Shown piece by piece: positions 20,048-23,390 of a stretch of DNA of 44,912 nucleotides. The DNA is from Bacillota bacterium (lineage in GTDB: Bacteria; Bacillota_I; Bacilli_A; RFN20; CAG-826): the NCBI GenBank assembly GCA_030537155.1, contig JAUNOH010000003.1, positions 63,847 through 108,758 of the forward strand. Reading direction: 5' to 3'. Under the pieces are notes generated by a model. That model had not been told where the DNA came from and ran no database searches. It was given only the letters and a program-made list of their open reading frames with translations. The first letter of the stretch is position 1; each line of letters opens with the position of its first letter. Both the position numbers and the translations under genes were made by a program.

Positions 20048-20052
20048 AATAA

Positions 20053-20080
20053 AGCGCAGCCCGTTGAGCTGCGCTTTTTT
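20053..20080. terminator. Bidirectional terminator between typA and ribF
   Basis: AGCGCAGC and GCTGCGCT form a perfect 8-bp stem with a 7-nt loop. The plus-strand tail is TTTTTT; the minus-strand tail is TTATTTTATTT. The ribF stop codon lies at the edge of the T-run. Confidence 0.88.
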
Positions 20081-20966
20081 ATCTATCCAAACTCTTCCGC
20101 CAAAGGAAGTCTTTCTCCAATTGGGCCGATAGCTTTTCCAGGCTATCGAACTTCATCTCGTCTCGTTCTCTATCAAAGAGGGAGAGATGGACTTTTTTCC
20201 CATATAGGTCTTCGCCCTCATAATCGAGGAGATAGGCCTCGAATGATGGGGTATCCCTTTTCCCGATGGTCGGGTTGACGCCGACGTTGACCATGGCCCG
20301 GAAGCTTTTTCCATCGATTTCGGCGATTCCGGCATACACCCCGAATTTAGGGACGACATATTCATACTCCAAAGCCAAATTTATCGTCGGGAAGCCGAGT
20401 TTATGGCCGTTATGGAGACCTTTGGCCACTACTCCCGAAAGGACGTAGTCATGCCCCAGAAGGCGATTGGCCTTTTTTATATCGCCGTTGGCGATGAGGA
20501 TTTTTATATTCCTCGAGGCGATCTTCTCGTCACCGTCATTAAGTAAGTCGATCTCCTCGACCGCAAAGTGTTTTCTCAATTCCTCCAAGCCGCCTGAGGC
20601 CTTGCTCCCGAAGCGGTAATCGGAGCCGCAGATGACCTTTTTGACGCCAAGGAGCACGAGGTACTTATTTATGAATTCCTCGGGGCTCAGGGCGAAGAAT
20701 TCAAGGTTGACGGGGATGATGTAGAAATCGTCGATCCCAATCTTACCCATCAAGGCGACCTTATCCTTTAGCCCGGTGAGGACATAGGGCGATTTCCCAT
20801 TTTGGAGGAAGGAGGCGGGATCTTTATCGAATAGCAAAACCCCGGCCTTTTGCCTGGCCCCGGATTCCAATAGCTTCTTATGCCCGAGGTGGACCCCGTC
20901 GAAATCCCCGAGGCAGATTATCGGGTTACCGGCTTTGATGGGTCCTTCCAAAATAGTGATACCCAT
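20079..20966 (-). CDS. ribF: Bifunctional riboflavin kinase / FMN adenylyltransferase
   Basis: The enzyme makes FMN and then FAD from riboflavin. The 295-residue protein has an N-terminal nucleotidyltransferase domain (GDFDGVHLGHKKLL near residue 20; GSDYRFG near 115) and a C-terminal flavokinase domain (KLGFPTINLALE, then VNVGVNPTIGK and LLDYEGEDLYGK). It shares one base with the truB stop (TAATG), so the two are translationally coupled, an arrangement common in Firmicutes. Confidence 0.96.
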   Translation of the reverse strand: MGITILEGPIKAGNPIICLGDFDGVHLGHKKLLESGARQKAGVLLFDKDPASFLQNGKSPYVLTGLKDKVALMGKIGIDDFYIIPVNLEFFALSPEEFINKYLVLLGVKKVICGSDYRFGSKASGGLEELRKHFAVEEIDLLNDGDEKIASRNIKILIANGDIKKANRLLGHDYVLSGVVAKGLHNGHKLGFPTINLALEYEYVVPKFGVYAGIAEIDGKSFRAMVNVGVNPTIGKRDTPSFEAYLLDYEGEDLYGKKVHLSLFDRERDEMKFDSLEKLSAQLEKDFLWRKSLDR

Positions 20967-21808
20967 TAGAATAATCCCCTCTCGGAGACGTATTTATCCC
21001 CGCTTCTTTTATAGACGGCCAAGGCCACTCCCTCATGGATAAGAAGCAGCTTCTCCTCCTCTCTGTTCAAATAAATCGATACCCCGTTCATGACTTTTTT
21101 GGATAGGGTCTCGTCACATTCATAATGCGGTAGATCTATCAGGGGGGTCGGGTCGATGATGTCCTCACTGGACAAGACATCCAATTTAACCGCGTCCTCT
21201 ACCGAAAGCTTCCCAATTTTAATTCTCCTGAGGGAGGTCAGATAGCCGACGGATCCCAATTCTTTGGCGATATCCTCGCCCAAGACGCGGATATAAGTCC
21301 CTTTCGAGGCTTTGACCCGGAAGGATATCTCATCCTCAGAGAAGGAAACTAGTTCCAGGGAAAAGATCTCGATCGGATAGGATTTCCTCTCCATCTCCAC
21401 TCCTTTATGGGCGTATTTATACATCGCCACCCCATCGACTTTATGGGCGCTCGTCAAAGGGGCCAGCTGCATCTGCTTCCCAAGGAATTTTAAGAAGACG
21501 GATTTGATTTTCTCCTCGTCAAAAGAAGGGATGGGATCGTTGCTTTTTGTTATTTCCCCATCGGGATCCCCGGTCGAGGAATGATATCCCAGTTTGAGGG
21601 TGGCCTCATATTCCTTCTCGCCATCCTCCAGATATGGGAGGAATTTCGTCCCCTTATTGACGGCAATCACCAAAAGACCGCTCGCGAAGGGATCCAGGGT
21701 ACCCAGATGACCCACCTTTTTAAGGTGAAGGGAGTGCGCTATGATATTATCGGCTTTACGGCTGGTTAGGCCGATGTCTTTATCCAGGAGAATTAATCCG
21801 TCATTCAT
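20966..21808 (-). CDS. truB: tRNA pseudouridine(55) synthase
   Basis: TruB makes pseudouridine 55 in the T-loop of tRNAs. At 280 residues it starts GLILLDKDIGLTSR and carries the catalytic motif GHLGTLDPFASGLL with the nucleophile Asp near residue 40. KxDGVAMYKYAHKG-type and RVLGEDIA segments follow. In most Firmicutes truB comes straight after rbfA; here a TtcA-like gene on the opposite strand lies between. There is no Shine-Dalgarno; a perfect TATAAT ends 8 nt before the ATG. Confidence 0.96.
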   Translation of the reverse strand: MNDGLILLDKDIGLTSRKADNIIAHSLHLKKVGHLGTLDPFASGLLVIAVNKGTKFLPYLEDGEKEYEATLKLGYHSSTGDPDGEITKSNDPIPSFDEEKIKSVFLKFLGKQMQLAPLTSAHKVDGVAMYKYAHKGVEMERKSYPIEIFSLELVSFSEDEISFRVKASKGTYIRVLGEDIAKELGSVGYLTSLRRIKIGKLSVEDAVKLDVLSSEDIIDPTPLIDLPHYECDETLSKKVMNGVSIYLNREEEKLLLIHEGVALAVYKRSGDKYVSERGLF

Positions 21809-21835
21809 GCGGTGAAATTATATATAATTTAAACC
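21809..21835. promoter_or_regulatory. Symmetrical divergent promoter of truB and the ttcA-like gene
   Basis: The 27 bp between the two ATG codons hold a perfect 16-bp palindrome (21815-21830) made of two abutting -10 boxes: ATTATA (21817-21822, TATAAT on minus) and TATAAT (21823-21828, plus). They end 8 and 7 nt before their ATGs. Neither side has room for a Shine-Dalgarno, and -35 boxes would fall inside the opposite coding regions, where matches are poor. Confidence 0.7.
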
Positions 21836-22981
21836 ATGCAGAGCATCAGGAAAGTATTGGCGGCCTTACGGAAGGCCGATGAACAGTTCTCGTTGATCGA
21901 GGATGGGGATAAAATCGCCCTCGGCGTCTCCGGGGGCAAGGATTCAATGTGCCTTTTGAAGGCCCTCTCGATCTATGGCAAATTCGCCAAGAAGAATTTC
22001 ACCATCTTCCCGATCATGTTAGACCTCGGCTTCGATGGCTTCGATTCCAGCAAGGTTGAGCGTTACTGCGGCGAACTCGGATTATCCCTCCAGGTCGTCG
22101 ATAACAAATTCGTCTACGGCATCCTCTTGTCCCATCAGGATCAGGGCAAGCACATCCCCTGCTCCATCTGCTCGAGGATGAAGAAGGCCGGCATCAACGA
22201 CGCGGCCAAGAAACTCGGCTGCAACAAAGTGGCCTTCGCCCATCATAAAGACGATGCCATCGAGACTTTGTTCATGAACATGGTCCATGGCGGGAGGATT
22301 GCCACCTTCGAGCCGAAGATGACTCTTGAGAGGGCCGGCGTCACCTTCATCCGCCCCCTGATACTATGCGGGGAGAAGGAGATTACCAAGATGGTCAAGG
22401 AGGAGCACATCCCGGTGCTCCGCCGCATCTGCCCCGCCGATGGCGAGACCGAACGCGAGGAGATCAAGGAAGAGCTTAAGAAGATTTATAAATCCCGCCC
22501 CGAAAGCGAGAAGAACTTCCTCTCGATGCTATCCGATTATAAGCATGCGAAGCTATTCTACGACGACCTCCAATACCAGAACGCCGAGGATGACACCATC
22601 TCCCTCCACCCCCTCACCAGCCCCCAGGATGTCCTCGAATACGATGAGCTCCGCGAGGCCCACCGGAAGGATTTAAACGCCATCCCCCTCGGGAGCGAGG
22701 CCTACATCATCTTAAGGAACGGCCGCACGGTCGGGGCCGTCTCAATCAAAATCGAGAACCCCCATCAGGTGAATATCCTTCAGCTCGACGTCTTATCGGG
22801 CGCCAAACCGCGCCGCGAGGCGGTCTTGCGCCAGATAATGTATATATATTCCCGCCAGATGAACCCCTGCCTATTCGTCTATCAGGCCATCGGCAAAGAG
22901 GTGGCCAGGCACTGCAACTACAAGCAGGAGACCCTCGAAAACGGCAAGCTCGGTGAATACACCTACAAGTCGATTAAATAG
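21836..22981 (+). CDS. TtcA/TilS-family tRNA thiolase-like PP-loop enzyme with extra C-terminal domain
   Basis: This 381-residue protein is a PP-loop ATPase related to TtcA, which puts sulfur on tRNA cytidine 32. Motifs are SGGKDS (32-37), CSICSRMK (about 109-116), HHKDDAIET (about 142-150) and a third cysteine in RRICPADGE (about 200), matching the three Cys ligands of the TtcA iron-sulfur cluster. TtcA proteins are about 250-310 residues. Here residues ~250-381 form an extra domain with AYIILRNGRTVGAVSI and a later helix-strand-helix that looks like a GNAT acetyltransferase half. It is divergent from truB and convergent with rbfA. The enzyme class is firm, the exact target less so. Confidence 0.8.
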   Translation: MQSIRKVLAALRKADEQFSLIEDGDKIALGVSGGKDSMCLLKALSIYGKFAKKNFTIFPIMLDLGFDGFDSSKVERYCGELGLSLQVVDNKFVYGILLSHQDQGKHIPCSICSRMKKAGINDAAKKLGCNKVAFAHHKDDAIETLFMNMVHGGRIATFEPKMTLERAGVTFIRPLILCGEKEITKMVKEEHIPVLRRICPADGETEREEIKEELKKIYKSRPESEKNFLSMLSDYKHAKLFYDDLQYQNAEDDTISLHPLTSPQDVLEYDELREAHRKDLNAIPLGSEAYIILRNGRTVGAVSIKIENPHQVNILQLDVLSGAKPRREAVLRQIMYIYSRQMNPCLFVYQAIGKEVARHCNYKQETLENGKLGEYTYKSIK

Positions 22982-22990
22982 AAAAAAGAA

Positions 22991-23019
22991 AACGGATGCC
23001 GCGAAGCATCCGTTTTTTT
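22991..23019. terminator. Bidirectional terminator between the ttcA-like gene and rbfA
   Basis: AACGGATGC and GCATCCGTT form a perfect 9-bp stem with a 6-nt loop. The plus tail is TTTTTTTC; the minus tail is TTTCTTTTTTC. Confidence 0.9.
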
Positions 23020-23390
23020 CATTCGTCGGAATCGCCCTTTTTGGCGTTCTCGAGGTCATCGCCCTCTTTTTGGAGGGCCTTCTCGAGGCTATCCATCCGG
23101 TCGAAGGATTCGTCATAGACGAACTCGATCTGGGGGGCTTTGTAGAGGTCGAGCCGCTTGGCGAGCTTGCTCCTGACGAAGCCCTCGCTTTTTTTCAGCT
23201 CCAATAACCTCTGATGGGGGTATTTCTGCCCGAGGAAGGTCACATAGACTATGGCCTTGGAATAATCGTTATAAACCTCGACCTCATTGACCGAGACCAT
23301 CCCGATCTTCGGGTTTTTTATCTCCAGTTGGACGATATCGGCGATGTTTTTCCCGATCAGGTGCTTGATGCGTCCGTTTCTCTCGGCCAT
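23019..23390 (-). CDS. rbfA: Ribosome-binding factor A
   Basis: RbfA binds the 30S subunit and helps mature the 5' end of 16S rRNA. The 123-residue protein has the KH-like fold; recognisable parts are HLIGKNIADIVQLEIKNPKIGMVSVNEVEV and the RLDLYKAPQIEFVYDES strand. The acidic C-terminus (DDLENAKKGDSDE) is a normal variable tail. It lies 2 bp after infB with AAGGAG inside the infB end, and is the last gene of the nusA operon. Confidence 0.95.
   Translation of the reverse strand: MAERNGRIKHLIGKNIADIVQLEIKNPKIGMVSVNEVEVYNDYSKAIVYVTFLGQKYPHQRLLELKKSEGFVRSKLAKRLDLYKAPQIEFVYDESFDRMDSLEKALQKEGDDLENAKKGDSDE

Follow-up and report, generated by a model that had tools for sequence, protein, structure and literature searches.

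The window, the 44,912-nucleotide stretch of DNA analysed here, comes from an uncultured Bacilli assembly whose close named matches are mostly gut and rumen assemblies. Around the intergenic gap under study, the gene order is nusA-rnpM-ylxQ-infB-rbfA on the minus strand, a ttcA-like gene on the plus strand, truB-ribF on the minus strand, and typA on the plus strand (Table 1). The inverted ttcA-like gene parts truB-ribF from rbfA, while in some relatives (e.g., at locus L003) rbfA and truB are adjacent and codirectional. We use the label TtcA-like because the match of the protein to NF007972 (176.9 bits) was under the NCBIfam equivalog cut-off for TtcA (272). The PP-loop, CxxC motif, and third cysteine by which TtcA is recognized are all present, and S32-GGKDS, C109-x2-C112, and C199 were invariant across 14 homologues. 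On the other side of the gap, ribF and truB presumably form one transcription unit. Terminator-like hairpins close the divergent ribF-truB/ttcA module at both ends, which makes the gap the most likely promoter of the module, and probably its only one.

Table 1. Coordinates of genes and sequence features around the ttcA/truB gap, in window positions.
Feature	Position	Strand	Basis
Terminator-like hairpin separating ribF from typA, bidirectional, T-rich tails	20051..20077	.	sequence
ribF, one-base overlap with truB	20079..20966	-	TIGR00083 above cut-off
truB, tRNA pseudouridine(55) synthase	20966..21808	-	TIGR00431 above cut-off
Predicted truB transcript start, A of ATG (21808) or G (21810)	21808..21810	-	inferred
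Perfect 16-bp palindrome, AAATTATATATAATTT	21815..21830	.	direct reading
TATAAT on minus strand (ATTATA on plus), -10 for truB, 8 nt to ATG	21817..21822	-	direct reading
TATAAT, -10 for ttcA, 7 nt to ATG	21823..21828	+	direct reading; distance within the genome's leaderless peak
Predicted ttcA transcript start, A of ATG	21836..21836	+	inferred from -10 position and purine preference
TtcA-like PP-loop protein, 381 aa, SGGKDS and CSIC motifs, probable tRNA thiolase	21836..22981	+	NF007972, PF01171, motif invariance
Terminator-like hairpin where ttcA and rbfA converge, T-rich tail each way	22989..23016	.	z -4.3; z -3.4
rbfA, last of the nusA-rnpM-ylxQ-infB-rbfA run	23019..23390	-	profile match

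The gap itself (GCGGTGAAATTATATATAATTTAAACC by direct reading) occupies 27 bp at 21809-21835, bounded by the minus-strand start codon of truB (21806-21808) and the plus-strand ATG of the ttcA-like gene (21836-21838). The earlier note had described a 16-bp palindrome in this 27-bp gap, with -10 elements 7-8 nt from the two ATGs, and direct reading confirmed its coordinates and counts. As regards reciprocal overlap, the sharing of key -10 positions between strands that is looked for in bidirectional promoters, the two hexamers of the window lie end to end (offset 6) with no base in common, in contrast to most of the relatives with an exact core, where the overlap is 4 or 2 bp. No recognizable -35 or extended -10 was present on either side of the window gap.

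Rarity and conservation of the mirrored -10 elements

The 12-bp core ATTATATATAAT had one copy in the 1,326,870-base (1.33-Mb) assembly of the window, from which ATTATATAAT was absent. When the window gap was shuffled with dinucleotides preserved, a palindrome of at least 16 bp arose in 0.55% of shuffles and the exact double -10 core in 5.5%, the latter because the gap is so AT-rich. Taken alone, the single locus is thus only suggestive, or moderately convincing at best, and it is conservation that decides.

To compare gaps, we collected those of 101 genomes of the window's family with divergent ttcA/truB, a set picked via ttcA matches whose start was intact, not drawn at random. Mirrored -10s were scored as TATAAT plus ATTATA, offset by -2 to 8 and mismatched at no more than one position overall. 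They were found in 87 of these 101 gaps, and the genomes that had them spanned 28 of the 29 genera of the family. The mirrored -10s were exact, forming AT(TA)nAT, in 40 of the 101. The earlier note had proposed a divergent promoter and had staked it on the palindrome being kept in close relatives; comparison of the gaps showed that mirror symmetry is retained, which supports a bidirectional promoter. Other families of the order also have divergent ttcA/truB, with ATTATAAT or ATTATATAAT in several gaps. The symmetric core is old, present family-wide and in other families of the order despite changes in (TA)n and in leader length. In the gaps of many relatives, one position of the mirrored hexamer is mismatched (e.g., AATATAAT), and there the truB -10 may be another box further out.

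Among the first 46 gaps, we counted 20 exact cores against 1.8 in dinucleotide shuffles (maximum 6 in 300 rounds) and 40 against 11.8 (maximum 24) when up to one mismatch was allowed. By comparison, the exact core occurred in 2 of 54 other divergent gaps in stretches sampled from six of these genomes. Genome-wide, ATTATATAAT was single-copy in G021, at the ttcA/truB locus, and had two copies each in G010 and G028, one of them at this locus. These counts bear on the alternative that two independent leaderless promoters stand back to back merely through the shortness of the 27-bp gap, with a symmetry that has no role of its own. The leaderless -10s of this genome are mostly 6-10 nt from starts, so that two of them in 27 bp nearly touch, a palindrome necessarily results when a consensus TATAAT faces ATTATA, and the shuffles of the window gap yielded an exact core at the frequency given above. 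However, gaps of 40-71 bp, with room for separate -10s, retain the overlapping ATTATAAT, often 20-36 nt from both starts, and other divergent gaps are mostly without an exact core. We therefore consider independent promoters unlikely.

Several loci depart from the common arrangement. In the large genus g40 (L162-L165), the ttcA-like gene is divergent from ribF with no truB between, and truB seems to have moved from or been lost at this locus. In five species of the window's own genus (L033, L034, L035, L036, and L039), ttcA lies away from truB; in most of these, the ttcA-like ATG is still preceded, at leaderless distance, by a -10-like box. In G021 (L051), the gene divergent from truB (minus strand, start 2418) is an intact 357-aa frame in which SGGKDS has become SLNKAS and the CxxC is missing, possibly representing a TtcA-derived pseudoenzyme. 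The promoter half of this gene is still kept, within the 20-bp palindrome GGGAAATTATATAATTTCCC. In-frame TAG codons were seen in otherwise conserved ttcA-like frames of G174 and G175 (genus g46), G101, and G054, for which pseudogenes, sequencing errors, or recoding are possible explanations. Similar elements also occurred away from ttcA/truB: a second compact divergent gap with mirrored -10s in G010 (L218:18461-18500, CCAATTATACGGGTATAATTGG) has one arm at leaderless distance, and in the window's genome the 14-bp palindrome GGGATTATAATCCC (L203:1501-1508; G000:C28:84962-84969) is separated from a minus-strand ATG by a leaderless-type distance.

Leader lengths in the window and its relatives

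Leaderless statistics were obtained from a 325-kb sample of the window's genome, with start codons and transcription units taken from simple gene calls. Of 123 transcription-unit starts, 13 had a -10 ending exactly 6 nt upstream, compared with 0.8 expected, and 28 had one ending 5-10 nt upstream, compared with 3 of 102 operon-internal genes. The window pair has the features expected of two leaderless genes, as its -10s end 7 and 8 nt before the respective start codons, within the same 5-10 nt range, and no Shine-Dalgarno-like sequence precedes the ttcA-like gene or truB. Given this strong genome-wide signature and the lack of a Shine-Dalgarno-like sequence, it is plausible that both mRNAs are leaderless, as the earlier note had suggested.

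Among the relatives, both -10s were at most 11 nt from the starts in 12 genomes, only that of the ttcA side in 48, only that of the truB side in 12, and neither in 11; no Shine-Dalgarno-like sequence was found in the 12 doubly short genomes. Most relatives kept the mirrored -10s with a start codon more distant on at least one side. In G242, the same core lies 26 and 28 nt from the starts, and a sample of that genome was without leaderless-type starts. Given G242 and the varied leader lengths, the mirrored -10 is the conserved part and leaderlessness a variable overlay. On the gene tree, the doubly compact state showed no clear clustering (at least 10 changes, 6 of them forced by starred branches).

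In previously described leaderless genes, a TANNNT -10 lies ∼12 bp upstream of the start, and in those Firmicutes genomes that had any, such genes made up 4.2% of genes on average, with a concentration in Lactobacillales and Mycoplasma (PMC3160421). The window resembles these genes in having a -10 at leaderless distance and no Shine-Dalgarno sequence. However, that study describes single leaderless genes, whereas in the window one palindrome would serve two.

Spacing, flank symmetry, and alternative explanations

Hexamer-start spacing among the 40 exact cores was 2 in 32 genomes, 4 in 6, 6 in the window, and 8 in 1. This series matches the gain or loss of central TA units, and AT(TA)nAT with n of at least 2 always retains both -10s. 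Exact hexamers that overlap cannot have offsets of 1, 3, or 5, so spacings below 6 are even by necessity. On the gene tree, the spacing changed at least 5 times with symmetry retained.

The symmetry also reached beyond the -10s. In the first 4 bp on each side outside the exact core, flank complementarity was 97/152, compared with 59.2 ± 5.6 when left and right flanks were paired between genomes. Related genomes are not independent, and with one genome per genus the excess was weaker (44/72 vs. 35.9, P 0.011). The signal was chiefly in the first three positions, extending ∼3 bp past the -10s, which suggests that both arms of the palindrome are under linked constraint of whatever kind. A T at -18 was rejected as a general cause of the symmetry: it is frequent in relatives but not in the window species by the 7-nt rule.

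Symmetry ∼3 bp past the -10s, together with halves that co-vary within a genome, could also be explained if the palindrome were primarily an operator for a dimeric regulator repressing both genes, with the -10s lying inside it by necessity, and some of the palindromes are long (GGGAAATTATATAATTTCCC in G021 and TTTAATATTATAATATTAAA in G176). We find such an operator improbable, given that the half-site distance shifts by 2, 4, or 6 bp between relatives, which the fixed spacing of a dimer would not readily allow, that the flanks differ by lineage, that no regulator gene adjoins ttcA/truB in the window, and that ttcA and truB both have housekeeping functions.

Alternatively, truB-ribF could belong to a noncontiguous operon and owe most of its expression to rbfA transcripts that read through the inverted ttcA, so that the gap would matter for ttcA only. 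The order of nusA to rbfA, inverted ttcA, and truB-ribF suggests an ancestral operon into which ttcA became inserted, and noncontiguous operons are a described arrangement (PMC7154746). However, rbfA and ttcA are separated by a strong hairpin whose T-rich tails run both ways, and the -10 on the truB side matches TATAAT perfectly, which makes read-through an improbable main source of truB-ribF mRNA. Least credible is that a mutational process, such as template switching that perfects imperfect palindromes, upholds the symmetry without selection on both promoters; flanks do match more within than between genomes, but AT(TA)nAT sites elsewhere in these genomes showed no significant flank excess (29/96 vs. 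24.5 at 24 sites), nor did a larger control set of 44 such sites (50/176 vs. 53.4).

The coordinated symmetry of the two halves is, in our opinion, the point of greatest interest. Returning to a promoter shared by both genes, it is possible, if rather doubtful, that the halves evolve in concert, with flanks and (TA)n length changing across the family while symmetry persists because each half serves as the -10 of one gene and also provides the other gene with its upstream element (-15 to -20). The two tRNA-modification genes would then share a truly single, stably maintained promoter, from which both mRNAs would be leaderless in the compact species.

Proposed mechanism and comparison with known promoters

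The founding paper on bidirectional promoters with symmetric -10 elements is reportedly that of Warman et al. (Nat Microbiol, 2021). That such promoters arise from symmetric -10s has been established by experiment (PMC10268837, PMC12825309). At the ttcA/truB site, a -10 motif in both orientations, a feature by which bidirectional promoters are recognized, was found in the window and in relatives. On this sequence evidence, the gap is very probably a bidirectional core promoter of the sigma-A type, with a mirrored -10 in an AT-rich palindrome. The best reading is that it belongs to the known kind studied by Warman, Grainger, and colleagues, at its wide-spacing, doubly leaderless extreme. The locus would be what is new here, and the compactness and depth of conservation what is unusual.

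In the mechanism that we propose, the short AT-rich palindrome would offer a consensus -10 in each orientation, and RNA polymerase could load either way, producing ttcA mRNA on the plus strand or truB-ribF mRNA on the minus strand. The AT-rich mirrored half, ∼15-20 bp upstream of the opposite start, could act as the upstream contact, and the compact gap of the window species puts each -10 at leaderless distance from its own ATG. At known bidirectional promoters, AT-rich DNA near -18 can make up for an absent -35 (PMC12825309, PMC10268837). Matches to a -35 did not surpass those in shuffled sequence on the truB side and did so only slightly on the ttcA side.

Two polymerases at once are sterically excluded at known bidirectional promoters (PMC12825309), and from this and its geometry the window site would be expected to hold a single polymerase at a time. 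The earlier note had proposed that such exclusion ties the expression of ttcA and truB. However, basal activity is usually too low for a cross-effect between directions, unless one of them is activated (PMC12825309), so tied expression does not follow from the geometry and, in our analysis, is not supported as such. Beyond allowing two constitutive genes to be expressed compactly, the shared position may be without regulatory purpose.

Most known bidirectional promoters come from the mapping of start sites in a few bacteria, where one arm often yields a non-coding RNA. A search of a limited body of literature on ttcA/truB divergence and on bacterial promoters that are both bidirectional and leaderless found nothing relevant. 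Mirror-image -10s kept between the same two housekeeping genes family-wide, with a series of spacings and leaders, amount to a natural experiment that bears on which spacings are workable, on the interdependence of the halves, and on the packing of two leaderless promoters into 27 bp.

Ordinary back-to-back divergent promoters can likewise serve a divergent pair of housekeeping genes. However, they have separate sets of -10 and -35 elements, whereas the -10s of the window are mirror halves of one short palindrome. With known bidirectional promoters, the window shares a pseudo-symmetric -10 that would engage polymerase in two orientations and give divergent RNAs. The commonest start spacing at these promoters is 18 bp, and 10 and 23 bp are also common (PMC12825309, PMC10268837). 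In the window, where the starts are predicted from sequence, the spacing would be 25 bp by the 7-nt rule, or 28 bp if both transcripts start at the A of ATG, at or just past the edge of the 7-25 bp definition. The window thus differs from the known promoters in this predicted 25-28 bp spacing and in its abutting hexamers, while most exact-core relatives would have 21 or 23 bp. It also differs in that both products would be mRNAs, predicted to lack leaders. Finally, whereas those two studies report no such case (PMC10268837, PMC12825309), the element in the window is conserved at one locus across its family and beyond.
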